NCBI GenBank assembly: GCA_018820855.1
Contig: JAHJNL010000007.1
Span: 62,001 to 126,000, forward strand
Source: Pseudomonadota bacterium
Lineage (GTDB): Bacteria > Desulfobacterota > Desulfobulbia > Desulfobulbales > Desulfocapsaceae
Length of the DNA: 64,000 nt
Reading direction: 5' to 3'
Part shown: positions 3,774 through 19,187 of the stretch, in pieces
How the letters are laid out: the number at the start of each line of letters is the position of its first letter
Position numbering within the stretch: position 1 is the stretch's first letter
Translations under genes and position numbers: made by a program
The notes under the pieces: model-generated
The model's input: the letters and a program-made list of their open reading frames with translations, nothing else
What the model was told of the DNA's origin: nothing
Database searches by the model: none

Positions 3774-3834
3774 AAGCAAAGTAAACGAGTAAAGTTATAA
3801 AGCGAGACACTATGCTACTACTATTGGTGAATGC

Positions 3835-3896
3835 TTACCACATTTGTGTGGCATAAAGGAACATTATACTACACTATTGCCACACAAATGTGGTAA
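3835..3896. promoter_or_regulatory. 19-bp perfect inverted repeat around a -10 element
   Basis: TTACCACATTTGTGTGGCA (3835-3853) is mirrored exactly at 3878-3896 with a 24-base spacer. Read on the minus strand, the spacer contains TATAAT (3863-3868), so a promoter for the kinase operon could lie between two operator arms. The half-site GTGTGGC resembles the GTGTTGC half-sites at 4133, 10427 and 11748. The dyad is visible in the sequence; the binding role is inference. Confidence 0.6.
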
Positions 3897-4132: not shown

Positions 4133-4157
4133 GTGTTGCATAAATGTAGCGCAACAC
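4133..4157. promoter_or_regulatory. GTGTTGC-N11-GCAACAC inverted repeat (putative activator site)
   Basis: Perfect 7-bp arms, GTGTTGC (4133-4139) and GCAACAC (4151-4157), lie about 170 bases before the Fe-S gene start. That is a usual distance for an upstream activating site of a sigma-54 activator. The same half-site recurs before both small-membrane-protein operons, suggesting a shared regulator (inference). Confidence 0.5.
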
Positions 4158-4325
4158 ATATGATACATAAAAATTTACATTAAATCAACATATTGTTCCA
4201 ATTAAACTTTTTTGAAGCACTCTGTAATGAATGAAGCCTCATTGTTAAATTGTCGGTTTTTTGTCCGCCTGAAATACCGGCTCGTATGAACACACTTATG
4301 TGTTTTAAGTATTAGGAGGGGAAGA

Positions 4326-5090
4326 ATGAACATTAAGGACTTGGAAAAGGAAAAAAATGAAGGCCTCGATTTACTGCCTTCGGAAGAGCGCCGTAAGTTT
4401 TTGAAAATAGGACTGGCGGTAACTGGTGTTTTTCTCGGTGGCTCTGTATTGTCGTTGACTTCTGTAAAAAGTGCCAAGGGAGGAAACAGTGATTCCGTGA
4501 TTCCTGCTGAAGGGCAATATCCTTACACCAAGCATTATGGGATGATAATGAGGCAGAATAATTGTGTCGGCTGCGAAAAATGTGTCGAGGCCTGCCGGGA
4601 GACAAATCATGTTCCTGTTGGCCATGGCGCCTGGCGGACAACTATTCAGGAGCGTCTGACCACAGTTGATGGTGTTGAAAAAAGAGAATTTAGACCAATT
4701 CTCTGTAATCATTGCAACCGCCCCCCTTGTGTTCGTGTCTGTCCTACCAAGGCAACCTATAAAGATCCTGAAACCGGTATCGTTGTCATGGATTACAAAA
4801 AATGCATCGGCTGTAAAACCTGCATGGCAGCATGTCCCTACAATGCCAGATATTTTAATCATGACAAGTATGCCATTGATAAGTGCAACTTTTGCTTAGA
4901 TACAAGATTGGGAATGGGCGAAAAGGAGACCGCTTGCGCGGCTGCTTGTCCTGCAAAAGTTAGAATTTTTGGCGACATAAAAGACAAACAAAGTGAAATC
5001 TACCGGTTGTTGCATGAACCTGACAATGCAATCTGGGTGTTGCGTCCGGAAACCGGCGCGTTACCAAATGTTTTTTATATGAATGCTTAG
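4326..5090 (+). CDS. Tat-exported four-cluster Fe-S protein (NrfC/DmsB/DsrO-like)
   Basis: A 254-residue periplasmic electron-transfer subunit. The N-terminus has a twin-arginine signal (RRKFLKIG at 22-29, then a hydrophobic stretch). Four ferredoxin-type cysteine groups follow: CVGCEKCVEAC, CNHCNRPPCVRVC, CIGCKTCMAAC and a split CNFC...CAAAC. This is the arrangement of the beta subunits of the DMSO reductase family and of NrfC, each binding four [4Fe-4S] clusters. The start has AGGAGGGG upstream. It heads an operon with a hexaheme cytochrome and an NrfD subunit. Together they would pass electrons between the quinone pool and periplasmic carriers; direction and partner cannot be told from sequence. 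A close paralogue lies at 18360-19187. Confidence 0.92.
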   Translation: MNIKDLEKEKNEGLDLLPSEERRKFLKIGLAVTGVFLGGSVLSLTSVKSAKGGNSDSVIPAEGQYPYTKHYGMIMRQNNCVGCEKCVEACRETNHVPVGHGAWRTTIQERLTTVDGVEKREFRPILCNHCNRPPCVRVCPTKATYKDPETGIVVMDYKKCIGCKTCMAACPYNARYFNHDKYAIDKCNFCLDTRLGMGEKETACAAACPAKVRIFGDIKDKQSEIYRLLHEPDNAIWVLRPETGALPNVFYMNA

Positions 5091-5361: not shown

Positions 5362-6027
5362 ATGAATAAAAAGTTAGTTAATGCCGTTGGAGTCACCATG
5401 CTTGCAGGGGCTTTTTTGCTTGTAAGCCATGCTTCAGCTACAGAAGAGTATGATGTAAAGGCTTTTGGTCCTAAAAATCCAATAGTTTGGGATAAGCCCG
5501 TTAAAGTTGTCTTTGAACACAGAGTACATACTGATAATGCCGGTCTCGAATGCAGTAGTTGTCATGGTGATATTTTTGCAATGCAGCGTGGCGTTGCTAT
5601 CCAAACTAGTCAACTAACCATGGCTTCTCTAGCTGAGGGACAATTTTGTGGTGTATGCCACGATGGCGATACGGCTTTTGCTTCTGATACGAATTGTAGT
5701 GCTTGTCACATTGTTCCAGATGATCCGATTGTTTGGATTAAACCTGCTAAGGCTGTTGTTTTTTATCATAAAATTCATACAGATGAGTATGGTCTCGATT
5801 GCGACTCCTGTCATAATGATGCGTTTGCCATGAAAAAAGGGCTAGCAGAAAATTCAGATAACTTCACAATGAAGGCTCTTTATAATGGGCATTACTGCGG
5901 TAAGTGCCATGATGGGGAAACTGCATTTGCCTCAAACACCCTTTGCAATACCTGTCACATAGGAGTGAAAGGGTACAATCGGATGATGGGTGGTGTTCCT
6001 CACGCTGATAAAAAAAGTGGTCATTAA
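5362..6027 (+). CDS. Hexaheme c7-type periplasmic cytochrome
   Basis: A 221-residue secreted cytochrome with a Sec signal peptide (residues 1-26, cleavage after SHASA). Six CXXCH haem sites are visible: CSSCH, CGVCH, CSACH, CDSCH, CGKCH and CNTCH. They form two tandem three-haem units, each with the spacing of the c7-type triheme domain: CxxCHxxxFAMxxG, then CGxCHDGxTAF, then CxxCH. Extra His residues (EHRVH, YHKIH) are likely sixth ligands. AGGAGA precedes the ATG. It sits between the Fe-S protein and NrfD, so it probably carries electrons for that complex. The paralogue at 15932 has three such units, showing growth by domain duplication. Confidence 0.93.
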   Translation: MNKKLVNAVGVTMLAGAFLLVSHASATEEYDVKAFGPKNPIVWDKPVKVVFEHRVHTDNAGLECSSCHGDIFAMQRGVAIQTSQLTMASLAEGQFCGVCHDGDTAFASDTNCSACHIVPDDPIVWIKPAKAVVFYHKIHTDEYGLDCDSCHNDAFAMKKGLAENSDNFTMKALYNGHYCGKCHDGETAFASNTLCNTCHIGVKGYNRMMGGVPHADKKSGH

Positions 6028-6130
6028 TCCATCAGGGATGTTTCAGACCTTTTCAATATGATGATCTGCAGGAAATTTTATAAAACGCACAGGCTGTATG
6101 CCTGAAAAATTAATTGCGCAGGAGATTAAA

Positions 6131-7324
6131 ATGGCGAACAATTCATTGGCAAATATATTTGCCGAGACACAGGATACCCGTCTGGCAACTCCGGGTATGA
6201 ACCGGGCAACGATTTTCTCTCTACTTGCTATCGTGGCCGGTCTCAGTTGTGGTGTTGCTTCTTTTATTTTCGGTCATGAAGCCATATATAACAACACTCG
6301 AGAAGTACCTTGGGGGATGTTGATTTCCACTTATGCCTTTTGGGCCATTACCTCCACAGGCCTTTGTATCTATGCCGCTATTTCTCATCTCTTTGGCGGC
6401 ACAAGAATGGCTATAGTCAGTAACAGGATGGTCTGGATGTCAATTGTCTGTATCCTCGCTGCATTTGCTACCATTGGAGTGGAGATTGCAAGTCCTCACA
6501 GGATGATCATTTACAATATTCTTTCTCCAAATCCTACTTCAAACATCTGGTGGATGGGTACCCTTTACGGTTTGGCTGTAGGTTGCATGATAGTTGAGTT
6601 TTTTGGTATTATAACCGGATTGGCCCGTATTGCTGTTATCCTGGGGACTATGGGTGCAGTGGCTGAAATTCTTGCCAACAGCTGTCTCGGCGGCGTGTTT
6701 GCAACACTGCCGGCAAGACCATACTGGTATGGCGGCCAACTTCCGATTTATTTTCTTACAGCTGCTTTTCTCTCAGGTGCAGCAGCCACAATTCTTTTTA
6801 ATCACCTGGCCTATAAGATTCGTAAAGAAAAGATGAGTGAAGCTGTCCGGCTGGGTATTAAAAGTGCTGGTAAAGCAATGACGCTCGTACTTGTTCTCTA
6901 TACCGTAGCCACTTTCTGGCGTCTTATCATGTATTATGTTGGTGGCGCAGAACTTGGCCGTATTGCCGCAGGTGCTTTAATCAGCGGACCTCTTTCTATT
7001 AATTTCTGGGTGTTCGAGATTGCTGTTGGCTTAATAGTACCGCTCTTGCTTGTTATTTTTTCTCGTCTGGAAAATATTGGTATGATGGCTTTTGCTGGTC
7101 TATTAATCCTCATTGGACAGTTTGTAGCCCGCTACGATCTCGTTGTAGCAGGTTTGATTGTTCCTGAAAGTCTTGGCTGGGATAATGTCCCCACCTATTT
7201 GGATTATGTGCCGTCGATCTTCGAATTTGGTGTGATAATCGGAAGTATAAGTGTTGTTTGTTTTGGTTTCCTTATGGGGGAAAGGGTTTTTGGTAAAATA
7301 TTTGAGCAAAAAGAACATCATTAA
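6131..7324 (+). CDS. NrfD-type polytopic membrane subunit, module 1
   Basis: About 397 residues with eight or more hydrophobic helices; it belongs to the NrfD/PsrC/DsrP quinol-interacting subunits. Typical features are a GHEAIYNNTREVPWGMLIS segment after the first helix, the SNIWWMGTLYG loop, and GPLSINFWVFEIAVGLIVP near the end. I chose ATG 6131 rather than the upstream in-frame ATG (6098) because AGGAG lies six bases before it. It would exchange electrons between menaquinol and the Fe-S protein, and is the last gene of the operon. Its paralogue at 16963-18270 keeps the same key segments. Confidence 0.92.
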   Translation: MANNSLANIFAETQDTRLATPGMNRATIFSLLAIVAGLSCGVASFIFGHEAIYNNTREVPWGMLISTYAFWAITSTGLCIYAAISHLFGGTRMAIVSNRMVWMSIVCILAAFATIGVEIASPHRMIIYNILSPNPTSNIWWMGTLYGLAVGCMIVEFFGIITGLARIAVILGTMGAVAEILANSCLGGVFATLPARPYWYGGQLPIYFLTAAFLSGAAATILFNHLAYKIRKEKMSEAVRLGIKSAGKAMTLVLVLYTVATFWRLIMYYVGGAELGRIAAGALISGPLSINFWVFEIAVGLIVPLLLVIFSRLENIGMMAFAGLLILIGQFVARYDLVVAGLIVPESLGWDNVPTYLDYVPSIFEFGVIIGSISVVCFGFLMGERVFGKIFEQKEHH

Positions 7325-7417: not shown

Positions 7418-8620
7418 ATGCAATTTATTACAACTGATTTAGTCACTATGTCAGACACAAAAGAAGATATTGGAAAACATCTTATCCATGCTGAATATCC
7501 TGACTCTCAATATTTCTATTTGGATCGTAGGAAGGGTGGGGGGCCGACCAGAGGTGGAAATGAGCTTTTTCAGGCCATCCAGGATCCTGTTTTTGTTGTC
7601 ACACCCAGCGGAATTATTGTTGGTGCCAATCATGCTGCCTTAAAGGCAGCCCAAAAGAGTCGATCCGAAATCATTGGTAAAGGTATCTGTAAGATTATTC
7701 ATGGAGGAAGTTCCCCCCATCTCAAATGTCCCTTAGAGGCATGCTTGCTTACCTGTTCTCCAAGAGTTGAAGAGACTATACTGCCAGGCCTTTCCGGGGA
7801 ATACCTTCTTACGATATCCCCAGTAAAAAACCACGATGGAACAGTGCGAAAGATTCTTATTGTTGCAAGGGAGTTGACCAGCGATGAGATGAGAAAAGAA
7901 GATTCGCTGCGAACTGCTCAGTTAGCTGCCATAGGTGAACTCGCGGCAGGGGTCGCCCATGAAGTCAATAATCCTATTACCGGGATTATAAATTTTGCCC
8001 AGTTACTCCTTGATGACAGTGAGAAAAATTCATTGCAGGAAGAACTGTTGGAGAGAATTGTTACCGAAGGGGAACGGATTGCTTCTATCATAAAAAAGCT
8101 TCTTTCCTTTGCTCGTGAAAGTGATAATGACAATGAGCCGATCGATCTTGTGCAGGTTATTCAAGATAGCATTTCTCTCGTTGAGCATCAGTTTAAAAAT
8201 GATGGTATTAAAATAATCACTGACTATTCTACGGAGCCTTGTAGTATTTTAGGTAATTTCAGACAATTACAACAAGTTGTTCTGAATTTATTAAGTAATG
8301 CCCATTTCGCCTTAAAGGAACGTTATCCTACCTCCTCGACTGACAAAGAAATTCGAATCAGTTGTCATCTTATTATTAAGGAAGAAGGTCAGTCTATAGT
8401 TCAGGTTTCGATCAGAGATTCAGGGACTGGTATTCCTCAAGGAATCCTGAATAGATTGTTTGACCCATTTTTTACAACTAAGCCCTCGGGGAAAGGGACA
8501 GGACTTGGTCTAAGTATCAGTTATGGAATCATTCGAGATCATGGCGGCATTATCAAGGTTGATTCAATAATTAATCAATACACTGATATGATAATAATTA
8601 TTCCGGCATTAGGTGCTTAA
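7418..8620 (+). CDS. PAS sensor histidine kinase
   Basis: A 400-residue soluble kinase. One PAS domain (about 47-155, with a CPLEACLLTC cysteine pair) is followed by HisKA with phospho-His at about 181 (GVAHEVNNPITGI) and HATPase (N box NLLSNAHFAL, G boxes RDSGTGIP and GKGTGLGLS). There is no membrane segment. The start is uncertain: neither ATG 7418 nor ATG 7448 has a clear ribosome-binding site. It overlaps the following regulator gene, so the two form a cognate pair. It closely matches the C-terminal half of the kinase at 1770-3773, showing that the two signalling systems arose by duplication. Confidence 0.93.
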   Translation: MQFITTDLVTMSDTKEDIGKHLIHAEYPDSQYFYLDRRKGGGPTRGGNELFQAIQDPVFVVTPSGIIVGANHAALKAAQKSRSEIIGKGICKIIHGGSSPHLKCPLEACLLTCSPRVEETILPGLSGEYLLTISPVKNHDGTVRKILIVARELTSDEMRKEDSLRTAQLAAIGELAAGVAHEVNNPITGIINFAQLLLDDSEKNSLQEELLERIVTEGERIASIIKKLLSFARESDNDNEPIDLVQVIQDSISLVEHQFKNDGIKIITDYSTEPCSILGNFRQLQQVVLNLLSNAHFALKERYPTSSTDKEIRISCHLIIKEEGQSIVQVSIRDSGTGIPQGILNRLFDPFFTTKPSGKGTGLGLSISYGIIRDHGGIIKVDSIINQYTDMIIIIPALGA

Positions 8621-8621
8621 T

Positions 8622-10418
8622 ATGGATGATCAAGCTACTCTGGAAAAAGATACTCCTATCCTGATAGTAGATGATGAAGCAAGTATTCGACTAACGTTCG
8701 AGATGTTTTTGGCACGTGCAGGATTTGGACCTATATCAACCGCGTCAACGTTAGATGAAGCACTCATCGCAATCAAAGAAAATGAATTTGATCTTATAAT
8801 TAGCGACATTGTCCTGGAAGGGGAGAGAGGAACCGAGCTTCTGCGTAAAATCAGAGAAACAGGTGTCGAGTGTCCTGTAGTTATGGTGACCGGATTTCCT
8901 AATCTGGATACTGCAGCAGAGGCAGTTCGATATGGTGCTTTTGATTATATCTCCAAACCTGTAAACAAGGAAACCTTGCTTAAATTTGTCCGACAGGCAT
9001 TAAAGCATTGGGAACTGGAAAATGAAAAAAAGCAATTATTACTCGAAAATGAAAAATTTAAGCGCTATCTCGAGGCAATTTTCAGTTCGGTGCGAGATGC
9101 GATTATTACTATAGACAATGAAATGAAAATTGTTCAGCTCAATGATACGGCTAAACAATGGCTTCAATATTCCGAAGAAGACAAGCTGGTCAGTCTTGAA
9201 TCTTATAAAAGTGAAATGGGTAAAGCCTGCCTGCAGGACGCTCAGCAAGTATTATCCAGCAGACAGGAAGTAAGGGAACATCAGGTTGAATGTAAAAAAC
9301 GTGATGGGAATATAAGGATTATAAGTCTGAATGCTGCACCGCTTGAAGATGGATTCGATGAATTTAATGGTGTCGTCATTGTAGCAAGAGATATCACTTT
9401 ACCGGAACCTGTAAGTGGGAGTAACTCCAGAAACAAATTTCATGGCTATGTCGGTTGCAGCCAGGTAATGCAAAATGTTTATAATTTAATAGAAAATGTA
9501 GGAAAGGTTGATACGGCTGTCCTTGTAACTGGTGAGTCTGGAACCGGAAAGGAACTCGCTGCTGAAGCATTGCATGCAGAAAGCCAGAGGCGTGACATGC
9601 CTCTGGTTAAAGTAGATTGTGCTGCTATGTCTGAAGAATTATTAGAGAGTGAGCTTTTTGGGCATAGAAAAGGAGCTTTTACAGGTGCTGATAGAGACCG
9701 TCCCGGCAGACTTCTTCAAGCTGACAAAGGGACGCTTTTTCTTGATGAGATAGGAGATATTTCGCCTCGTATGCAACTTCTTTTACTAAGGTTTCTTCAG
9801 GAAAAAACCTTTACTCCGGTAGGGCAGGATAACCCGATAGCGGTAGATGTCAGAATTATTGCTGCAACCAATGTAAATTTTACAGAAAAAGTAAAGGATG
9901 GAAGCTTTCGGGAAGATTTGTACTACCGGTTAAAGGTTGTTGAGATAAAATTGCCCCCTTTGCGTGATAGAAAGGGAGGCATTCCCATTCTCGTTCATCA
10001 CTTCCTTTCTATGTTTCGCGAAAAACTCAAACGCAATATTCATGGCATCTCAGATCAGGCTATGGAAGCACTTGCACGTTATACATGGCCAGGAAATGTC
10101 CGTGAGTTGCGGCATATAATTGAGAGAGCTTGTGTTTTGTGTGATGGGCCGACTATTTCATTGGAACATTTTCCAGAAGAAATTCAAAAACCGGTAATAT
10201 ACATTTCAGCACAGTCAGGAATCCTTGATCATCGTACAAATATTGCAACGTTACCGCCCTATGTCAGTGAAGAAGATGAAATTATAGAGGCCCTGAAACA
10301 TGCCCGTGGCAATAAATCTAAAGCTGCACGTATACTCAACATTGACCGCTCCACTCTCTACCGTAAGATGCAGAGAATAGGTCTCGCAAGTGATATTGCC
10401 AAAACGAATAACAGGTGA
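8622..10418 (+). CDS. Sigma-54-dependent response regulator with REC, PAS, AAA+ and Fis-type HTH
   Basis: A 598-residue activator. The receiver domain has its phospho-Asp at about 62 (ISDIVLEG). A PAS domain follows (about 150-260), then an AAA+ domain with Walker A GESGTGKE, an intact GAFTGA loop (about 350-355), Walker B LFLDEIGD and arginine-finger segments, and a Fis-type HTH ending in NIDRSTLYRKMQRIG. Intact GAFTGA means it should drive sigma-54 RNA polymerase. A GTG at 8613 is an alternative start. It is translationally coupled to the kinase. Immediately downstream is a 20-bp inverted repeat followed by a small-protein operon, and a similar site with a sigma-54 promoter precedes the second such operon, so these are likely targets. 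Confidence 0.94.
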   Translation: MDDQATLEKDTPILIVDDEASIRLTFEMFLARAGFGPISTASTLDEALIAIKENEFDLIISDIVLEGERGTELLRKIRETGVECPVVMVTGFPNLDTAAEAVRYGAFDYISKPVNKETLLKFVRQALKHWELENEKKQLLLENEKFKRYLEAIFSSVRDAIITIDNEMKIVQLNDTAKQWLQYSEEDKLVSLESYKSEMGKACLQDAQQVLSSRQEVREHQVECKKRDGNIRIISLNAAPLEDGFDEFNGVVIVARDITLPEPVSGSNSRNKFHGYVGCSQVMQNVYNLIENVGKVDTAVLVTGESGTGKELAAEALHAESQRRDMPLVKVDCAAMSEELLESELFGHRKGAFTGADRDRPGRLLQADKGTLFLDEIGDISPRMQLLLLRFLQEKTFTPVGQDNPIAVDVRIIAATNVNFTEKVKDGSFREDLYYRLKVVEIKLPPLRDRKGGIPILVHHFLSMFREKLKRNIHGISDQAMEALARYTWPGNVRELRHIIERACVLCDGPTISLEHFPEEIQKPVIYISAQSGILDHRTNIATLPPYVSEEDEIIEALKHARGNKSKAARILNIDRSTLYRKMQRIGLASDIAKTNNR

Positions 10419-10426
10419 CACTTTTT

Positions 10427-10486
10427 GTGTTGCCATTATGTTGCAATACTGTCGTTTGCAACATAATGGCAACACACGTGCAACAC
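10427..10486. promoter_or_regulatory. 20-bp perfect inverted repeat plus extra half-site (putative UAS)
   Basis: GTGTTGCCATTATGTTGCAA (10427-10446) is mirrored exactly at 10456-10475 across a 9-base spacer, with a further GTGCAACAC at 10478-10486. The repeat starts eight bases after the regulator stop and about 155 bases before the candidate promoter. It could work as an activator site, or as an RNA stem ending the kinase-regulator transcript; there is no U-run. Confidence 0.55.
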
Positions 10487-10630
10487 TCCAGGTTTCCTTC
10501 AGTTTCCCTTCTGGGTAAAAGATTTACTTGTGATAACTTCTTATCTTTATTTTAATTCAGCATGTTAGCGTCTTTCTCAATACTGAATCTGAAAATATTT
10601 AGTTTTTTGGAATGGTTTGTGCATTACTAG

Positions 10631-10646
10631 TGGCACAATGTGGCTT
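10631..10646 (+). promoter_or_regulatory. Candidate sigma-54 promoter with spacing one base short
   Basis: TGGCACAATGTGGCTT has a perfect -24 element (TGGCAC), but the GC of the -12 element is 11, not 12, bases after the GG. The position, about 45 bases before a gene and about 155 bases after an inverted repeat, is right for sigma-54. The short spacing leaves it uncertain. Confidence 0.4.
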
Positions 10647-10690
10647 AGAAGTTAATAGAGCTTAATGCCAACTATCATGAAGGGAGAAAG

Positions 10691-10897
10691 ATGAAAAATA
10701 CAACAGTACTTGCCAGAGATAAAAGCGTCGTTAGAGAGAACGTCACTGTTGAACTCAATAGAGTAGGTATGTGTGTGGTTGGAATTACTTCGATACTCAT
10801 TGGCAGTTGGGCAGTAACTTGCCTCGTTTCCGGTATGGTCCTTAGTGGTGGACCTGTCAGCCTTGTTTCAAATTTTATTTTATCATTCGTCGGGTGA
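10691..10897 (+). CDS. Small single-helix membrane protein, type A (copy 1)
   Basis: A 68-residue protein with a polar, charged N-terminus (1-28), one hydrophobic helix (about 30-54) containing W..TCL, a GGPV turn, and a short amphipathic C-terminus ending FVG. The ribosome-binding site AGGGAG is well placed. It is the first of five paralogues in two adjacent operons, sharing E[IL]x[KR]-helix-WxxxC[LM]-GGP-ending G. This copy has lost the usual AIxG ending. I do not recognise a named family. The conserved Trp and Cys near the end of the helix and the shared GP turn suggest packing against a larger membrane complex (inference). Confidence 0.8.
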   Translation: MKNTTVLARDKSVVRENVTVELNRVGMCVVGITSILIGSWAVTCLVSGMVLSGGPVSLVSNFILSFVG

Positions 10898-10931
10898 ACT
10901 GAAAAGACTCGTATCAGCTAAGGAGCTCAGG

Positions 10932-11147
10932 ATGAATAATACTACACACACTTTGGTAAAAGCTGACAGTCATTCAAAAGAGAGAAGCACTGTCGGTGCT
11001 GAAATTTCAAAAATAGGTGTTTCTGCCATTGCTATCTCGGCTGGTATAATTGCCTGTTGGGCAACAGCCTGCCTTTTTGCAGGTTCCTTGAGTAATGGAG
11101 GGCCGTTTGGGCTCATAATTAATTTAGTAAATGCAATTGTAGGGTAA
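10932..11147 (+). CDS. Small single-helix membrane protein, type A (copy 2)
   Basis: A 71-residue protein built like copy 1: charged N-terminus, AEISKIG, one hydrophobic helix with CWATACLFAG, NGGP, then an amphipathic end NLVNAIVG. I took the ATG at 10932, preceded by AAGGAGCTCAGG, instead of the in-frame upstream ATG at 10845, which overlaps copy 1. It lies 34 bases after copy 1 in the same transcript. Function unknown. It is closest to the copy at 12025. Confidence 0.82.
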   Translation: MNNTTHTLVKADSHSKERSTVGAEISKIGVSAIAISAGIIACWATACLFAGSLSNGGPFGLIINLVNAIVG

Positions 11148-11190
11148 TCTGGTATATTGTCGTATAAATTATAAGGGAACTAACCTGGAC

Positions 11191-11216
11191 AATTTAGTGA
11201 ATGCAATTATCGGATA
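11191..11216 (+). pseudogene. Remnant of a further small-protein copy (C-terminal end only)
   Basis: The 30 bases at 11191-11220 match 11121-11150, the end of copy 2, at roughly four positions in five. They encode NLVNAIIG followed by a stop, without a start or helix. This is a fragment of a tandem duplication and shows the array has gained and lost members. Confidence 0.6.
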
Positions 11217-11263
11217 ATTATTTACTGAAACTGATCTCGTGATAATGTAAGAGGTATCTCCCC

Positions 11264-11488
11264 ATGGAAGAAAAAGCAATCACCAAAGAAAGGATTAAGG
11301 CTACTCCTGCTGTTCATGAAATAGAGCACACTGATAGCGAACTTTATAAAGTTGGAATATATACTACAGCTGCCTTTGCAGTGGGAGCGGGTGTTTGGGG
11401 GATAATTTGTCTTTCAAGTTCTGTTTTTGCAGGTGGCGGGCCTGTTGAAATGCTGAAAAACCTGTATCAGGCCATTGTTGGCTTGTAA
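11264..11488 (+). CDS. Small single-helix membrane protein, type B (copy 3)
   Basis: A 74-residue protein of the second subtype. The N-terminus has HEIEHTDSELYKVG, then a hydrophobic helix with GAGVWGIICLSS, GGGPVEMLKNL, and the ending AIVGL. The W-x-x-x-C and GP positions line up with type A, so the two subtypes are homologous. AGAGG lies upstream of the ATG. It is the last gene of the first small-protein operon, followed by a strong terminator. The closest relative is the gene at 12274. Confidence 0.82.
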   Translation: MEEKAITKERIKATPAVHEIEHTDSELYKVGIYTTAAFAVGAGVWGIICLSSSVFAGGGPVEMLKNLYQAIVGL

Positions 11489-11506
11489 AAAACTCTCATA
11501 TCTAAA

Positions 11507-11559
11507 AAAACACAAAAAGGGGTCATTGAGCAAAGCTCAATGACCCCTTTTTGTGTTTT
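11507..11559 (+). terminator. Rho-independent terminator of small-protein operon 1
   Basis: A perfect 25-bp stem (11507-11531 with 11535-11559) and a 3-base AAA loop, flanked by A- and T-runs. It lies 18 bases after the last gene. Confidence 0.9.
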
Positions 11560-11747
11560 GACTCAATTGGGTCCGCTGATTATTCCTTAGATTTCAATCA
11601 CTGGTAGCCAATTCTTTTGAAGCCAGGGCCTCTGGTGATGTCCGCCAAAAGCGCTTTTCCTTTAGAGCTGCAGTTTCCTATATATTCCCTTGCAAATACA
11701 TATTGTTTCTCTTCGTACGGCCATGTGTCGCACAGTTGTCGCGCACA

Positions 11748-11784
11748 GTGTTGCACGGCTGTTGCAGCGCCACATTTGTGCAAC
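11748..11784. promoter_or_regulatory. GTTGCAC / GTGCAAC dyad (putative UAS of operon 2)
   Basis: GTGTTGCAC begins at 11748 and its mirror GTGCAAC ends at 11784, with further GTTGC and CCACA...TGTG elements between. The cluster lies about 120-155 bases upstream of the sigma-54 promoter at 11905, a normal enhancer distance. The half-site is the same as at 4133 and 10427. Confidence 0.55.
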
Positions 11785-11904
11785 GTTCTCCTTCTTTCAT
11801 TATCGGCTTGTCGATTTACCGTGCTGAATACAATTTGTTATATTTATAATTAAAACGGTATGATGTCAGCTTAACCAAGGGTGCTGAGAATTAATTACTA
11901 AAAC

Positions 11905-11920
11905 TGGCATCATAACTGCA
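11905..11920 (+). promoter_or_regulatory. Sigma-54 promoter of small-protein operon 2
   Basis: TGGCATCATAACTGCA has GG (11906-11907) and GC (11918-11919) exactly 12 bases apart and matches the -24/-12 consensus TGGCAC-N5-TTGCA at most positions. It lies about 105 bases before the first gene. Confidence 0.65.
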
Positions 11921-11948
11921 GTAGTTATCGTATCTTAAATAAGGAGAT

Positions 11949-11995
11949 CTGATCTCATGGTGAGATCAGGCACAACGAGCAAAAAAAACCTATAA
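11949..11995 (+). promoter_or_regulatory. Leader stem-loop with possible 12-residue leader peptide
   Basis: CTGATCTCA (11949-11957) pairs with TGAGATCAG (11961-11969). A good ribosome-binding site AAGGAG (11941-11946) precedes an ATG at 11957 that opens a frame MVRSGTTSKKNL ending with TAA at 11993-11995. The start codon sits in the stem, so translation of the leader and folding would compete. Attenuator-like control of operon 2 is possible but unproved. Confidence 0.35.
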
Positions 11996-12024
11996 GCAGA
12001 GTTCGTAATTTAGCAGGAATCGCC

Positions 12025-12231
12025 ATGAAAGAAACTCAAATCTCAAATAGAACAAGCACAAAAACAGAAAGCATTGCCAATGCAGAAATATCAAGAGTAG
12101 CAGTAACTGCCATAAGTATTTCTGCTGGTGTCATAGGGATCTGGGCAGTTGCCTGTATGATTGCAGGCATTTCTAATAGTAGCGGACCCGTTGATCTGTT
12201 ATCCAGTTTATTTAAAGCAATTATTGGTTAA
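12025..12231 (+). CDS. Small single-helix membrane protein, type A (copy 4)
   Basis: 68 residues: a Ser/Thr-rich polar N-terminus, AEISRVAV, one hydrophobic helix with IGIWAVACMIAG, SSGPVDLL, and the ending KAIIG. Strongly similar to copy 2. GCAGGAA is the ribosome-binding site. It is the first gene of the second small-protein operon, behind the sigma-54 promoter at 11905 and just before a type B gene. Function unknown. Confidence 0.82.
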   Translation: MKETQISNRTSTKTESIANAEISRVAVTAISISAGVIGIWAVACMIAGISNSSGPVDLLSSLFKAIIG

Positions 12232-12273
12232 TTTTAATTTTTTATCCACTCATTAAAACAAAGGATTATTCCC

Positions 12274-12495
12274 ATGAGCAAATCAGAACTTAGCAAACAA
12301 AATGTAAAAGCCACCGTTCACGAAGCTGTAAACACTGATAGTGAATTGTATAAAGTTGGGGCTGTATTGACAGCAGCCTTTGCAGGAGGAGTTGGGGTTT
12401 GGGGTATAATTTGTTTGTCCAGTGCCTTTCTGTCCACCGATGGTCCGGTAGCTCTTGCAAAAAGTCTGTTTGGAGCAATAACTGGCAGTATGTAA
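12274..12495 (+). CDS. Small single-helix membrane protein, type B (copy 5)
   Basis: 73 residues: polar N-terminus with HEAVNTDSELYKVG, then a helix with GVGVWGIICLSS, TDGPVALAKSLF, and the ending AITGSM. Nearly a twin of copy 3. AAAGGA lies upstream. The A-then-B gene order is kept in both operons, so the two types may pair with each other (inference). A terminator follows. Confidence 0.82.
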   Translation: MSKSELSKQNVKATVHEAVNTDSELYKVGAVLTAAFAGGVGVWGIICLSSAFLSTDGPVALAKSLFGAITGSM

Positions 12496-12555
12496 CACAT
12501 GAATTGTGACCATATGATACGGTCACAAATAATTTTTGTTCCGGAATCTTTTTTG

Positions 12556-12589
12556 AGCCAGAGAGATTATATCTCTCTGGCTTTTTTTT
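12556..12589 (+). terminator. Rho-independent terminator of small-protein operon 2
   Basis: The stem AGCCAGAGAGAT (12556-12567) pairs with ATCTCTCTGGCT (12571-12582), followed by a run of eight T. A weaker hairpin (GTGACC/GGTCAC) lies shortly before it. Confidence 0.9.
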
Positions 12590-12759: not shown

Positions 12760-14628
12760 ATGGCAATTCTCATTCGAAATCTCTTTATCTTTTTTCTTTT
12801 TACCGTGCTCCTTGGTGGTGGTTATGGCCTATGGAAGCTAGAGCATAAATTGCGCACTGTAACGTATAGCGAGTTTCGCTATTGTCTTACTAATCATGAC
12901 CTTGAGTCTACAACCTTCACCGGAAACAAGGTTATTGCTAAACACAAAGCCGGTGATAGTTATGAAACTACTGTTCCCAACCCTGAAAAACTTATTTCTG
13001 AACTTCAAGATAGAAACATTCAAATTATCTTTAAAAAGGATCGTTCCGAACAGATTTTTGAGGGAGTTGCTCTTGTTTATATAATCTTACTGCTTTTAAC
13101 GGTCATTATCTCGTTGAGTAAAAAGAGAAGACTTGAGGAGGAAGAAAACAAATTCGCCTCAGATAAACTTATATTGCCAACCAGTGGTCAAAAATTAGTA
13201 ACATTTAAAGATGTGGCAGGCATCCCTGAAGCACTGGAAGAATTGCAGGAAATTGTCAATTTCCTGATAGATCCGCATCAATACAGTAAAATTGGTGCAG
13301 TAAGTCCTAAGGGAATATTACTGCAAGGCCCGCCAGGTACCGGAAAAACCTTACTGGCGAGAGCAATAGCCGGTGAAGCGAAGGTTCCGTTCTACAATTT
13401 TAGCGGTTCTGATTTCGTGGAAATGTTTGTAGGGGTTGGTGCATCGAGAGTAAGGGATATTTTCAAAGAGGCAAAAACAAACGCACCCTGCATCATTTTC
13501 ATAGATGAAATCGATGCTGTGGGCGGCATTCGTGCTGGCGGAGTCACTGCCAGCGGTCAGGATGAAAGAAGTCAGACCTTAAATGCTCTGCTCGTCGAAA
13601 TGGATGGATTCAGTTCTTCTGATACGATTGTTGTCTTAGCCGCAACAAACAGGCCTGACATTCTGGACCCTGCGTTGAGACGTCCCGGTCGCTTTGATCG
13701 TCAGGTTAATATCTTGCCTCCTGACATCAAAGGAAGGAAAAAAATTCTGCAAGTCCACGGAAGCAAAGTTGCTCTTTCACCTGATATTGATCTGGATAAA
13801 ATTGCTCATATGGTTCCGGGCTTTACCGGCGCCGAGCTTGCTAATCTTGTGAATGAAGCTGCCCTGATGGCAGCCAGGAACGGTAAGGAAAGTGTGGAGT
13901 ATCAGGATTTTGAATTGGCCAGTGACCGTATACTCATGGGTGTTGAACGTAAGGGGATGATTATTTCTGAAAAGGATCGCAAGGTTCTTGCGTTACATGA
14001 GGCAGGGCATGCAATAGTTGCCAAAACACTACCGCATGCTGATCCCATTCATAAAATTACAATTATTCCGCGGGGACGCGCCTTGGGACAGACCCAGCAA
14101 CTCTCAGTGACTGATCGGAATAGTTACAGTTATGATTATCTTAAAAGCAGAATAACCATTCTCATGGGTGGTAGGGCTGCTGAGGAGATAGCCTTTCAAA
14201 AGAGAACGACAGGAGCGCAGGGCGACATAGCTCAGGCAACAGAAATTGCAACCAATATGGTTTGTAAGTGGGGCATGAGCGATATCATTGGTCCTCAGGC
14301 TATGGTAATTGATGACACCAGTTTTATTGGTAGACCTGCACAGCGTTTGGAAATGAGTGACCGAACCTCTGAGGCTGTTGATAAAGAAATTAAAAAGTTG
14401 CTTGAAATGTGTAACAATGAAGCCGTCACAATTCTCAAAGAAAAATATTACCTGCTAAAACAGCTTGCTGAGATACTTCTTGAGGTAGAGACGTTAGATG
14501 ATGAAGAATTCGAGATCATCATGGATTGCCGTTTTACCGAACAGATAGCTGCTGGTATAAAAGAAAGTAATCAATGTCGTGCTTGTCCGGCAGCTGAGAG
14601 TTGTATCCATTCAAAATTAAAGAATTAA
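12760..14628 (+). CDS. ftsH: FtsH-family membrane AAA+ zinc protease with Cys-rich tail
   Basis: 622 residues. Two membrane helices (about 5-25 and 103-122) flank a small periplasmic domain. The AAA+ domain has Walker A GPPGTGKT (about 190-197), Walker B IIFIDEID and the second-region-of-homology arginines in RRPGRFDRQ. The protease domain has the zinc site HEAGH (about 413). It should degrade membrane and some soluble proteins using ATP. The C-terminus is odd: instead of the usual acidic, Pro/Lys-rich tail it ends with three cysteines (606, 609, 615) in [10 protein letters not shown], a possible metal or redox site. Its place directly after the small membrane proteins suggests an accessory FtsH whose substrates may include them or the redox modules (inference). 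Confidence 0.93.
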
Positions 14629-14631
14629 ATC

Positions 14632-15537
14632 ATGCATTCATTAAAAAAAACCAGCTATCTGACATTTATGGGAGTTTCAATTCTGCTTCTTTTTGTCATT
14701 ATTCTAAGTTTTCGCCAGTATCAGCTTACCGAGAGATACAATTCAATTATCACTCAGAGCGAGAAGGTAATCTTTCAGTTCTCAACTATCCGAGAACAGA
14801 TCACGACTTCCCTGATTGAAAAAGACTGGGATAAAATTGTCAACGCAGCTGATCAGCTTAATAATCTTAATTCAACTTTGGCAAGATTACAGGAAAATAC
14901 CCTAATACCTGGAGAATATCGCCTTGATATGGCAAAACAGGTAGACCTTGCGGGACTGGTTATTTCATCGAAGGAAATTCTTTCCATCAATGATAAGGTC
15001 GCACATAGTCGCAGTTTACAACATAAAATGCGTAACTTGGCAGAATACCTTATGCAGTTCGACAGGATTATTGTCAGTCAGATGCGGGCAAAAGTTGTTC
15101 AGTTTCAAACAATCATGATTGGCGCCTTGGGTGCTGTTATTTGCTTGATCAGCTTTTCCCTGATCCTTCTTTACAAAAAAACCATGCTTCCTCTTCTTCG
15201 ACTTTCCGAGCAAGCAGGAGACCCTGAAGTTCTTGTTACTGGCTTCAGTTATGACGATAAAGCCTGTGCCGAAGTCGCCGATTTCACAAACTCAGTGAAT
15301 GAGCTGATTAAAAGGAAAAGAAAAAATAATGGGTGTGAGGATTCAATTCGACCTCATGATGAACAACTAGCACGCATTATCAATGAGAGTACAAATCTAT
15401 CAAACGGTATCATTAATTATGCTCAATTGTTGGCAGATTCATATCGAGAAGTAGAAGCAGGTAAAGAGGAAACAAAAATCCTTTATAACATTATCGATGC
15501 TGCGGAACGAATTGCTCAGCTCAACAAAGAGATTTGA
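14632..15537 (+). CDS. Membrane protein with inactive HisKA-like dimerisation domain and no ATPase
   Basis: 301 residues. A first helix (about 8-27), a helical periplasmic region (about 30-160), a second helix (about 163-183), and a C-terminal domain (about 245-301) aligning with the HisKA helices of the kinases at 1770 and 7418. It keeps NGIINYAQLLADS and ERIAQL, but the phospho-accepting His is replaced by Asn (about 251, IINES in place of VAHEI), and the protein stops where the HATPase domain would begin. It cannot be a working kinase. It might sense a periplasmic signal and mix with the paralogous kinases through the dimerisation helices (inference). It starts four bases after ftsH, so it is probably co-transcribed. 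Confidence 0.85.
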   Translation: MHSLKKTSYLTFMGVSILLLFVIILSFRQYQLTERYNSIITQSEKVIFQFSTIREQITTSLIEKDWDKIVNAADQLNNLNSTLARLQENTLIPGEYRLDMAKQVDLAGLVISSKEILSINDKVAHSRSLQHKMRNLAEYLMQFDRIIVSQMRAKVVQFQTIMIGALGAVICLISFSLILLYKKTMLPLLRLSEQAGDPEVLVTGFSYDDKACAEVADFTNSVNELIKRKRKNNGCEDSIRPHDEQLARIINESTNLSNGIINYAQLLADSYREVEAGKEETKILYNIIDAAERIAQLNKEI

Positions 15538-15931: not shown

Positions 15932-16873
15932 ATGATCAAACGTCCAGTATTAACAGCAACTTTTATGACCCTTGCTGCTTCTCTGCTTTTTGCCGGCAAT
16001 GGCCTGACTGAAGAAGTGTACGATGTTAAGTTGTATGGTCCTAAAACCACAATCGAGTGGAATAAACCAATCAGAGCCACCTTTGACCATAAAACTCATA
16101 CAATGGAAGCTGGACTAGAGTGCTCATCCTGTCATGATGAGGTGTTTTCCATGCAACGTGGAGTTGCTGTGACAGGTCGTAACTTTACAATGAAGGCTAT
16201 GGCTGAGGGGCAGTTCTGTGGTACCTGCCATGATGGTGACACAGCATTTTCCACAGATACAAATTGTATGGCCTGTCATGGTGTCGCAGAAGACCCAATT
16301 ATCTGGGATGAGCCTACTAAAGCTGCATTCAGTCACAAAGCTCATGTTGAAGAATTTAGTCTTGAATGTAATAGCTGCCATAGTGGAGTGTTTGCCATGA
16401 AGAAAGGTGCAGCAACAATGAATAACGATTTCACAATGGCTTCCTTTCAAGAAGGGAAATATTGTGGGACCTGTCATAATGGAGATGACGCCTTTAATTC
16501 CTCAACTCAGTGTGGATCCTGCCATTTCCCCCCTACCGAAAAAATTGTTTTTAATCAACCAGTAAAAACAGTTGTGTTTGATCATGACATTCATGTCAAT
16601 CAAGAGAAGGTGTCTTGTGAGTCTTGTCACAAAGAAGTTTTTGCTATGAAAAAAGGAACTGTTGAAGGTCAGGAGTTTGTCCTTTCTGAAGACCCTGCCG
16701 AAAAGAGGAAATATCTCGAAAATCTCCATAGCAAATATTGTGGCACCTGTCATGATTCTGCACAGGCTTTTGGCTATCTTACCAGATGTACTGTCTGTCA
16801 TATCGGTGTAAAAGGTTTCAACAAGATGACAGGTGGTGACAACAAAACTGAAGAACATGGAAAAGGTCATTAA
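15932..16873 (+). CDS. Nonaheme c7-type periplasmic cytochrome
   Basis: 313 residues with a signal peptide (about 1-25, cleaved near the end of LLFAGNGLT). Nine CXXCH sites are visible: CSSCH, CGTCH, CMACH, CNSCH, CGTCH, CGSCH, CESCH, CGTCH and CTVCH. They form three tandem c7-type triheme units. The last ends in the same CxxCHIGVKGxNxMxGG tail as the hexaheme protein at 5362, so the two differ by one internal unit. I chose ATG 15932 (GGAG upstream) because the longer frame adds 21 residues before the signal peptide. It is first in an operon with NrfD and Fe-S subunits. Three units in line would make a longer electron wire than the six-haem form (inference). Confidence 0.93.
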   Translation: MIKRPVLTATFMTLAASLLFAGNGLTEEVYDVKLYGPKTTIEWNKPIRATFDHKTHTMEAGLECSSCHDEVFSMQRGVAVTGRNFTMKAMAEGQFCGTCHDGDTAFSTDTNCMACHGVAEDPIIWDEPTKAAFSHKAHVEEFSLECNSCHSGVFAMKKGAATMNNDFTMASFQEGKYCGTCHNGDDAFNSSTQCGSCHFPPTEKIVFNQPVKTVVFDHDIHVNQEKVSCESCHKEVFAMKKGTVEGQEFVLSEDPAEKRKYLENLHSKYCGTCHDSAQAFGYLTRCTVCHIGVKGFNKMTGGDNKTEEHGKGH

Positions 16874-16962: not shown

Positions 16963-18270
16963 ATGACTGGAAGGATGGTTAATATTTCAAAAAGGTGGGG
17001 TTTTCATGGCGTCGAAGCCCTGAGAAACGCAAGCACCACGTACAAGATGGTTATGGGGTTTTTTGTCCTCTTGGCTCTTGCAGGTGCAGTGGTTGGTCTT
17101 CATGGATTACTTGTCGGTTATCATCACGTCTATGGTGTTACCCGTGAGATTTCGTGGGGCTTGCTCATTTCTGCATACATTTTCTGTGTTGTCACATCAA
17201 CTGGTCTCTGTATTGTGTCATCAATAGGCCATGTTTTTGGTGGTGAAGCATTTATGCCCATAGCCAAACGGGCAGTGTTTATGTCCATCATGTTTATGTT
17301 TGGAGGTTTTTGTATTATTTTCTTTGATATTGAAAATCCTTTCCGCATGGCTATCTGGAATGTCTTTTCACCAAACTTTGTTTCCAACATGTGGTGGATG
17401 GGAACTCTTTATGGTGCCTATTTGGTCTTCATGGTCATAGAGTACTACTTTCTGCTTGAACAGAACCATACTCTCTCGCGACTGATGGGCTTTTTTGGAT
17501 TGGTTGTCGGTATTGCGGCTCATAGTAACCTTGGTGCTGTGTTTGGAATGTTGCACGGACGCCCGTTTTGGTATGGTCCTTACCTGCCCATTTATTTTAT
17601 TTTCTCAGCTGCAATGTCAGGTGGTTGTGCCATTCTTTTCTTTACTACGCTTGGTTGGAGAATTAACCCTGAAATCATGAATCAGCGTATGGAACGCTCT
17701 GTAAAGGCAGTTACTCAGATCACTATTTTCCTGATTTCTGTAATTATCTTTTTTACCATCTGGAAAATAATCACCGGTATGGTATCTGAGGGTAAGCATT
17801 TGGTCATCATGTCTTTTTTAAGTGGTGATTATGCCATTAACTTCTGGGTATTTGAGGTTTTTCTCGGCATGTTTCTTCCTCTGTACCTTTTGATTCGTTC
17901 TAGAGGGAATAATTTCAATCTGATTCTGACAGCAACAGGCCTCATGATGATAGGAATCTTCTTCATGCGCTATGATATAGTTATCCCAGGACAGATGGAA
18001 TCGGTCTATCATTCCATGGGTGTTGTCGAAGCTGCAGATATGTTGACTTATACTCCATCTTTTCATGAAATCATGGCCTCTCTCTTTGGTATTGCTTTTA
18101 TAGCCTTTGCCTACTTTGCCGGTGAGAAAATGCTCAATGGCCATCAACTTGAGAAACATGAGATCGTTCCTGAAGGTGGTTACATCTGTCCGGGTTGTGG
18201 TGCCATTCACTATATGGAAGAAGGCGAGACAGAAGAAGATGCTATGAAACGTCATCACAGGATCTGGTAA
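16963..18270 (+). CDS. NrfD-type membrane subunit, module 2, with extra CxxC tail
   Basis: 435 residues with about ten hydrophobic helices. It shares key segments with the subunit at 6131: YHHVYGVTREISWGLLIS, SNMWWMGTLYG and INFWVFEVFLGMFLPL. GGGGAG precedes the start. The C-terminus adds about 35 residues that module 1 lacks, containing YICPGCGAIHYMEEGETEE, a single CxxC knuckle like half a rubredoxin or zinc-ribbon site. It could bind metal between two chains (inference). It lies in an operon between the nonaheme cytochrome and the Fe-S protein and probably oxidises or reduces the quinone pool. Confidence 0.92.
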   Translation: MTGRMVNISKRWGFHGVEALRNASTTYKMVMGFFVLLALAGAVVGLHGLLVGYHHVYGVTREISWGLLISAYIFCVVTSTGLCIVSSIGHVFGGEAFMPIAKRAVFMSIMFMFGGFCIIFFDIENPFRMAIWNVFSPNFVSNMWWMGTLYGAYLVFMVIEYYFLLEQNHTLSRLMGFFGLVVGIAAHSNLGAVFGMLHGRPFWYGPYLPIYFIFSAAMSGGCAILFFTTLGWRINPEIMNQRMERSVKAVTQITIFLISVIIFFTIWKIITGMVSEGKHLVIMSFLSGDYAINFWVFEVFLGMFLPLYLLIRSRGNNFNLILTATGLMMIGIFFMRYDIVIPGQMESVYHSMGVVEAADMLTYTPSFHEIMASLFGIAFIAFAYFAGEKMLNGHQLEKHEIVPEGGYICPGCGAIHYMEEGETEEDAMKRHHRIW

Positions 18271-18359: not shown

Positions 18360-19187
18360 ATGAAATTTCCTAAAATAAATTTAGATAATCTGAAAAATGA
18401 GGGTACAGATTCTGTAACGCCTCAGGAAAGAAGAAAGTTTCTGAAACTCGGACTTGCAATCGCCGGTGTTTATGCTGGAGGAAAAATACTGTCTTTAACT
18501 TCTGTCATTGGTACTGCACACGCATCAGGTGGTGGTGTCGAATTTGTCAAAAAATATCCATATAATCCGCACTACAGTATGGTTATCCGCCAATCACTCT
18601 GTATAGATTGTGAAAAATGTGTCGATGCATGTAATACCACAAATCATGTGCCTGAATATGGTTATAGGACCCGTATTCTAACCAAAAAATATACTGGTAA
18701 TCTCGACAAACAGGTTGAGTTTATTCCTGTGCTCTGTAATCACTGTAACGATGCCCCATGTGTAAGGGCATGCCCGACCAAGGCAACCTATAAGGATCCT
18801 ATTACAGGTATCGTTCGTATGGAAAGCAAGAAATGCATCGGTTGTAAAACCTGCATGCTAGCCTGTCCATATGATGCCAGATATTTCAGTGCTGCAAGAC
18901 GCGCCGTTGACAAGTGTGATTTCTGTTGGGAAGAGAGATTATCTAAAGGTAAAAAGCAGACAGGTTGTTCAGCCGCATGTCCGACTGGGGCCAGGACCTT
19001 TGGTAACCTTACTGATCCGGATAACATTGTCTACAAACTTGTTCATCAGCTTGAAGAGCAGGTTTGGGTATTACGCCCTGCAGATGATACAAAACCAAAT
19101 ATTTTCTATATGAAAGGAAATATGAGATCTGTTGACAATATACTTAGAGGACAAAAATTTATTAATTTTTCTTCTGAGAAACGTTAG
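18360..19187 (+). CDS. Tat-exported four-cluster Fe-S protein, module 2
   Basis: 275 residues with a Tat signal (ERRKFLKLG at 23-31) and four ferredoxin-type cysteine groups (CIDCEKCVDAC, CNHCNDAPCVRAC, CIGCKTCMLAC, CDFC...CSAAC). It is clearly paralogous to the protein at 4326. The frame begins at a TTG at 18330, but ATG 18360 has AAAGGA ten bases upstream and is the better start. Gene order differs between modules: Fe-S, cytochrome, NrfD in the first; cytochrome, NrfD, Fe-S here. The same three parts were therefore kept after rearrangement. A strong terminator follows. Confidence 0.92.
   Translation: MKFPKINLDNLKNEGTDSVTPQERRKFLKLGLAIAGVYAGGKILSLTSVIGTAHASGGGVEFVKKYPYNPHYSMVIRQSLCIDCEKCVDACNTTNHVPEYGYRTRILTKKYTGNLDKQVEFIPVLCNHCNDAPCVRACPTKATYKDPITGIVRMESKKCIGCKTCMLACPYDARYFSAARRAVDKCDFCWEERLSKGKKQTGCSAACPTGARTFGNLTDPDNIVYKLVHQLEEQVWVLRPADDTKPNIFYMKGNMRSVDNILRGQKFINFSSEKR

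Follow-up and report, generated by a model that had tools for sequence, protein, structure and literature searches.

An undescribed family of single-helix membrane peptides, with predicted sigma-54 control and a dedicated FtsH, suggests an unrecognised membrane redox-response system

Background

SpoVM is a short membrane-associated helical peptide linked to FtsH; in the Psp response a sigma-54 activator drives small inner-membrane proteins; and CbcSTU has a make-up of cytochrome, iron-sulfur (FeS) and NrfD subunits. In the available parts of the following sources, lambda CIII is described as both an inhibitor and a substrate of FtsH (PMC1838920), MgtR as a promoter of MgtC degradation (PMC6813294), MgrB as a small single-helix membrane protein made by the PhoPQ two-component system (PMC8404706), NrfD-like subunits as quinone-binding (PMC8076601) and HmcD as a hydrophobic peptide of Hmc (PMC10924467). 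The present analysis follows up a preliminary description of a stretch of 64,000 nucleotides, called the window here (contig JAHJNL010000007.1, positions 62001-126000; genome size 4.82 Mb), in which two operons of small single-helix membrane peptides (10691-12495) sit between the gene of an NtrC-type regulator and ftsH. We propose that a redox-linked two-component sigma-54 module has these peptides as its dedicated output, and that they work in the inner membrane with a dedicated FtsH; our confidence in this reading as a whole is evenly balanced.

How does this locus compare with the described systems? Like CIII, SpoVM and MgtR, the peptides are short, helical, membrane-associated and tied to FtsH; however, they share no Pfam or NCBIfam family with them, and here the FtsH is a dedicated paralogue, the peptides are multi-copy and their control is of the sigma-54 type. 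The second helix of another protein encoded at many peptide loci, termed the two-helix partner here, resembles HmcD, and the NrfD of one type of locus resembles its companion HmcC. The partner nevertheless stays under the HmcD cut-off, and the peptides match only its other helix, are multi-copy and have a separate promoter. The combination of a small single-helix membrane protein with a two-component system is that of MgrB, but there is no family match, and many copies, sigma-54 and FtsH are involved here. Small inner-membrane proteins under a sigma-54 activator are also the Psp arrangement, but the regulator here has a Response_reg receiver domain, and no PspA, PspB or PspC family was found among the proteins scanned. 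CbcSTU, Qrc and Hmc share the subunit types c7, FeS and NrfD; the sets here differ in that a sigma-54 regulator, ftsH and a pseudo-kinase are coupled to them, and in not reaching the HmcC, DsrP, QrcC or QrcA cut-offs.

Results

Are the short frames real genes, and do they form a family? The reading frames bear out the five intact peptides of about 70 residues and the one fragment that had been reported, with their two subtypes and two operons, and the reported order of A before B holds in all 12 loci that show both types; one further (13th) stretch has only a B peptide. The motifs E[IL]x[KR], WxxxC[LM] and GP are indeed present in all five, and the invariant columns of their alignment are E21, W40, C44, G54, P55 and G68; the AIxG-like end, likewise said to be shared, occurs in four, and pepA1 terminates in SFVG instead. 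The ratio of nonsynonymous to synonymous substitution rates (dN/dS) is 0.06-0.48 in 19 of 20 comparisons of the window peptides with four relatives (dS was saturated in the 20th, and some best matches in the set are paralogues). The frames are therefore protein genes under purifying selection, and a coding artefact is ruled out. Searching with a profile built from the five window peptides gave 13 matches in the own genome at E < 1e-6, which together with the low dN/dS argues that the family is not due to chance. With the own genome counted in both sets, the family is present in 25 of 36 genomes of the organism and its relatives and in 13 of 297 genomes of a phylum sample, 5 of the 13 coming from the same order. 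Copy number reaches 14 per genome, including orphan loci, which have no FtsH, NrfD or regulator gene nearby, and WxxxC is kept in 77 of 86 distinct members.

The statement that no named family can be recognised holds across five resources: 40 diverse members gave isolated weak matches only in Pfam and NCBIfam, no family was found in PHROGs and PADLOC beyond two single weak PHROG matches, and a search of PDB sequences gave nothing beyond isolated weak matches. A literature search that reached few subscription papers found nothing on the peptide family or its gene set, and the available parts of PMC6303296, PMC10924467, PMC4641369, PMC3333781 and PMC9751629 contain no description of either. In an AlphaFold2 model of a peptide (pLDDT 67, pTM 0.32) the chain forms a long helix, breaks at GP and continues as a second, short helix. 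Two minor observations belong here. At one type I locus (L066:8271-8405) a decayed A-type copy lies within the operon at the position of pepA2 and resembles the window fragment. Three very divergent matches (L290, L291 and L292; 27-32 bits) have an N-terminus that is longer and basic, and their C-terminal helix is similar; they may be a separate branch or chance matches.

What controls these genes? We scanned 172 peptide operons; leaving out 10 exact duplicates and 12 operons whose upstream sequence was short gave a set of 150. A sigma-54 box scoring at least 13 lies 20-140 nucleotides before the start in 134 of the 150, against 59 of 3000 shuffles (2.0%), and a box scoring at least 14 in 128, against 18 of 3000; several of the 16 operons under the score limit are internal genes split off by the operon grouping. 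A looser count found a score of at least 14 anywhere in about 350 nucleotides upstream in 141 of 160 operons, same-contig duplicates being included and window operon 1 scoring there through a match inside its enhancer array. One strict pattern was present in 122 of the 150 peptide operons versus 5 of 270 other module genes (ftsH 4/61, FeS 0/64, NrfD 1/63, regulator 0/28, kinase-like 0/54). Since sigma-54 promoters are almost confined to the peptide operons, the peptides and not the redox genes are the output of the module, and the dedicated sigma-54 control noticed in the window extends well beyond it. Orphan loci mostly retain the promoter. The peptides were also considered as ordinary constitutive subunits of a complex; this was rejected, as NrfD, FeS and cytochrome genes almost never have a sigma-54 promoter.

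Upstream of the promoters lie activator sites. TGTTGCA is found in 81 of 129 upstream regions (11.6 expected), and the spacing of same-orientation half-sites peaks at 11 and 22 base pairs (bp). The inverted repeats of the preliminary description exist, but they are parts of these half-site arrays and not separate elements. A perfect 21-bp inverted repeat after the regulator gene was tried as a terminator and rejected, because the half-sites recur upstream of other peptide operons; the strong terminators that had been claimed correspond to terminator-like repeats elsewhere, one for each operon (Table 1). Type II loci have GGGACA sites in the same phasing. In stretches whose regulator has the recognition helix DRSTLYRK, 28 operons hold 85 GCNACA and no GGGACA sites; where the helix is ARSTLYRQ, five operons, orthologous within one genus, hold 23 GGGACA and 5 GCNACA (for 117 further operons no regulator lay in the stretch read). 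A longer element, CCTATC-N-GCAACA, precedes orphan peptide pairs; in a set of five genomes, peptide loci account for 12 of its 18 matches and the other 6 lie elsewhere, the reversed pattern giving none, and in genome G008 (two contigs) all seven matches are at peptide loci. GCNACA-N5-GCAACA has ten matches in the own genome, four at the two peptide operons, one before the redox operon starting at 4326 and five elsewhere. An adjacent AAA+ activator and upstream activator sites, as expected of a sigma-54 regulon, are thus both found. Computational support for the predicted regulation of the peptide operons is good, whereas the function of the peptides is inferred.

Related sites were seen upstream of the FeS-c7-NrfD-kinase-regulator operon (start 4326), namely a TGTGGC/GCCACA inverted repeat and a TGTTGC-TGTAGC-GCAACA cluster (3841-3896 and 4134-4159), whose half-sites belong to the family seen at the peptide operons. 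No sigma-54 box was found there by the pattern used, and autoregulation is possible.

Is the neighbouring FtsH an ordinary one? In one tree 26 module-linked FtsHs separate from 8 housekeeping FtsHs at 100/100; 23 of the 26 have a peptide in their stretch, one (L134) has only a two-helix partner, and two (L235 and L242) have neither. In another tree 26 module-linked rows form a branch at 97/95, and L244, an FtsH beside NrfD without peptides, falls outside. At least two M41 matches are found in 25 of 25 peptide-bearing genomes versus 2 of 11 without peptides. At L278, in a single-contig genome of another family, two peptide genes and ftsH stand in a row in 15 kb, and no NrfD, FeS or regulator match was found within the 15 kb read. 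As L278 holds peptide-peptide-ftsH alone, ftsH is suggested to be the most persistent partner. The C-terminus of the window FtsH (14460-14625) has a Cys-rich tail; comparable tails recur in FtsHs of types I and II and are less frequent in type III, and a metal or redox site is possible.

What else accompanies the peptides? As had been described, they lie between two redox modules and beside FtsH, with two sets of c7, FeS and NrfD genes flanking them. Three arrangements recur. Type I has the gene order of the window; type II runs kinase, regulator, peptides, ftsH, pseudo-kinase, NapC/NirT-like cytochrome, FeS, NrfD; type III runs ftsH, c7, FeS, HmcC-like NrfD, kinase-like protein, peptide, two-helix partner, and in named genomes a regulator often precedes it. 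Neighbours were counted with a distance limit of 8 kb at 74 non-redundant operons with at least 5.5 kb on both sides, a set picked by the searches themselves, so that the figures are not population rates: ftsH was near 46, NrfD near 50, the regulator near 38 and any of the three near 55. A random locus would lie within 8 kb of an M41 gene in about 3% of cases, given eight M41 matches per 4.8 Mb. The window NrfDs score 41 and 49 bits against HmcC and the type III NrfD 356 bits, the curated cut-off being 550 bits; none of the module subunits scanned reaches the curated cut-offs for HmcC, DsrP, QrcC or QrcA. The cytochromes beside the peptides are of the short c7 type.

The membrane protein encoded after ftsH lacks the features of a histidine kinase: its phospho-accepting His is replaced by Asn and it has no HATPase domain. 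Where kinases have HE in the H box, 9 of its 11 close relatives have NE (the script gave no call for the other two), and the G box is found in none of the 11. The longer kinase-like proteins of type III are mixed, some retaining His and some having Asn or Ser. Divergent from the redox operon, at 1770-3779 on the minus strand, lies a full-length histidine kinase with an H box (AHEINNPINGIINYAQ) and a G box; it resembles the pseudo-kinase family and may be the partner kinase.

The two-helix partner has about 100 residues and the motif YTHIKGxEY, and among its named records the genera Desulfocapsa, Desulfobulbus, Desulforhopalus, Desulfogranum and Desulfofustis predominate. In hhalign the peptides correspond to its first helix (probability 94.9, 44 columns), and its second helix matches the NCBIfam family HmcD in 36 of 37 members (E up to 0.01, best 4.5e-7). 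All these matches are below the curated HmcD cut-off of 34 bits, which was reached in none of five genomes; in three genomes all 11 sub-cut-off HmcD matches fall at two-helix partner genes. Twelve stretches with a true HmcD have an HmcC-like NrfD gene adjoining, and no peptide was found in them. The partner is carried by 14 of the 19 orphan loci. None was found in the window module (0 of 5 peptide genes on the own contig), a Foldseek search of the partner model (pTM 0.30) against PDB gave no match, and no plasmid match was found.

Discussion

The following scenario may be drawn from these data. The NtrC-type regulator beside the peptides would bind the upstream half-site arrays and fire the sigma-54 promoters; outside the peptide operons, whether these belong to the module or to scattered orphan loci, such promoters appear to be nearly absent, and the peptide genes seem to be inherited together with a paralogue of FtsH that is separate from the housekeeping one. 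These steps have computational support. The c7-FeS-NrfD set and the membrane pseudo-kinase might sense how reduced or oxidised the quinone pool or the periplasm is, and steer the soluble kinase. Upon activation the inner membrane would become filled with the peptides, each a single helix carrying a floppy tail of about 20 residues; working with the dedicated FtsH, they might serve as its clients, its adaptors or its competitive inhibitors. Respiratory membrane proteins would be stabilised or removed as the outcome, and FtsH may also clear the peptides once the signal ends. That the peptides act on or through FtsH we infer from genomic linkage and co-inheritance only.

Then could the peptides have another role? 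The preliminary description had offered subunits, assembly factors or stress peptides of the NrfD/cytochrome complexes. Stress peptides fit best, and a subunit or assembly role is unproven; orphans without a nearby NrfD, and L278 with its peptides and ftsH, speak against it. The subunit idea stays alive because the two-helix partner is distantly HmcD-like: peptides and partner could be inducible small subunits that dock on the c7-FeS-NrfD complex, as HmcD does in Hmc, to adjust its activity or exchange isoforms. Both helices of the partner agree with this, as do the gathering of HmcD matches at partner genes, the HmcC-like NrfD of type III and the frequency of NrfD near the peptides. We nevertheless consider it rather unlikely, for the HmcD matches are sub-threshold, the window module has no partner, the promoters are not common to the NrfD genes, and G008 has more orphan peptide loci (seven) than complexes. 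A different role would be that of feedback regulators which bind the membrane pseudo-kinase or a kinase and damp the response, like MgrB on PhoQ. That precedent (PMC8404706) speaks for the idea, as does the setting of a small membrane protein controlled by its own two-component system and encoded beside a membrane sensor. Feedback, however, would need neither up to 14 copies per genome, orphans among them, nor a pair of subtypes in each operon, the link to FtsH is left unexplained, and L278 has no kinase; we judge this role improbable.

Slightly more improbable still is a physical, Psp-like action on the bilayer, in which the peptides would be general membrane-stress fillers and FtsH merely their disposal. 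Sigma-54 control, high copy number and hydrophobic single helices would suit such fillers, but the conserved W, C, G and GP and the separate FtsH clade point to specific contacts, and the receiver domain of the regulator is unlike PspF. Peptide toxins or phage-derived small proteins may likewise be small, hydrophobic, paired and multi-copy; however, the conserved synteny with respiratory genes and the near absence of PHROG and PADLOC families, together with the lack of a plasmid match for the partner, make this origin very remote.

Several points weigh against the proposed module output working with FtsH. The expectation that homologues always lie near NrfD/c7 or FtsH genes agrees with the 55 linked loci, but 'always' fails because 19 of the 74 are orphans. 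Slightly more loci have NrfD nearby than FtsH, NrfD being overall as frequent a partner, and no module gene lies near L290-L292. The correlation of FtsH copy number (Spearman 0.90, 36 genomes) is confounded by completeness and genome size. Ten of the 28 operons near a DRSTLYRK regulator hold fewer than two half-sites, the five ARSTLYRQ operons count as one evolutionary change because they are orthologous, and L278 has no sigma-54 box by the pattern used. The structure models are poor (pTM about 0.3).

Despite these points, the original observation is confirmed and its regulatory part comes out stronger, and an undescribed peptide family with its gene set suggests an unrecognised membrane redox-response system. 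The family is widespread and unnamed, with unusually strong comparative evidence for its regulation, and its loci bring sigma-54 signalling and a dedicated FtsH together with a quinone complex of the NrfD type, which is not a usual combination. We take the system to be a membrane response of the sigma-54 kind whose effectors are small proteins, and a case for something more is plausible. Tentatively, a new class of membrane redox response can be pictured, made of paralogous, mutually insulated sigma-54 modules in which c7-FeS-NrfD and pseudo-kinase sense the quinone pool and families of tiny peptides flood the inner membrane and programme a dedicated FtsH; each module would be marked out by a peptide subtype, an FtsH paralogue, an enhancer half-site and an activator recognition helix of its own, and peptide pairs scattered across the chromosome could answer to a single module. 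This larger picture is possible, though we hold it with some doubt. The promoters, half-sites, cognate regulators and FtsH clade offer handles on respiratory-membrane remodelling in anaerobic sulfur bacteria, and the paralogous regulators with matched DNA sites form a natural set.

Feature coordinates and minor observations

Table 1. Positions of the features within the window
Feature	Coordinates	Strand	Remarks
FeS subunit	4326-5090	+	redox set 1
Multihaem cytochrome c7	5362-6027	+	redox set 1
NrfD-like subunit	6098-7324	+	redox set 1
Soluble PAS histidine kinase	7418-8620	+	no transmembrane/hydrophobic helix found
NtrC-type regulator	8613-10418	+	receiver, PAS, sigma-54 AAA+, Fis-type HTH, recognition helix DRSTLYRK
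Activator array, operon 1	10428-10485	.	five TGTTGC/GCAACA half-sites, neighbours 11 bp apart either side of centre
Sigma-54 promoter, operon 1	10608-10623	+	weaker (TGGAATGGTTTGTGCA, score 13); boxes of L062 and L066 at equivalent place
pepA1	10691-10897	+	subtype A, single-helix membrane peptide, 68 residues
pepA2	10932-11147	+	subtype A, 71 residues
Fragment	11191-11218	+	duplicated 3' end of an A gene (NLVNAIIG-stop); 86% to pepA2 3' end (11121-11148)
pepB1	11264-11488	+	subtype B (SELYKVG), 74 residues
Terminator-like inverted repeat, operon 1	11507-11559	+	
Activator array, operon 2	11726-11774	.	TGTCGC, TGTCGC, TGTTGC, TGTTGC, GCCACA
Sigma-54 promoter, operon 2	11905-11920	+	good (TGGCATCATAACTGCA)
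pepA3	12025-12231	+	subtype A, 68 residues
pepB2	12274-12495	+	subtype B, 73 residues
Terminator-like hairpin and T run	12555-12583	+	3' of operon 2; repeat at 12556-12582
Dedicated FtsH	12760-14628	+	GPPGTGKT and HEAGH intact
Membrane pseudo-kinase	14632-15537	+	two hydrophobic helices, His to Asn in H box, no ATPase domain
Multihaem cytochrome c7	15932-16873	+	redox set 2
NrfD-like subunit	16963-18270	+	redox set 2
FeS subunit	18363-19187	+	redox set 2

In G008 an IS1595-type transposase gene (L235:5266-6210) lies between the regulator gene and ftsH, beside a sigma-54 box; for this module the 18 kb read contain no peptide gene, and its peptides lie elsewhere. A staphylococcal-nuclease-like protein (PF00565) is encoded near the peptides in several type III loci (L064:4779-5303 and relatives), its cluster occurring in five loci. 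Downstream of redox set 2 in the window, 19381-20913 encodes a pentapeptide-repeat protein, whose cluster is found in four type I loci.

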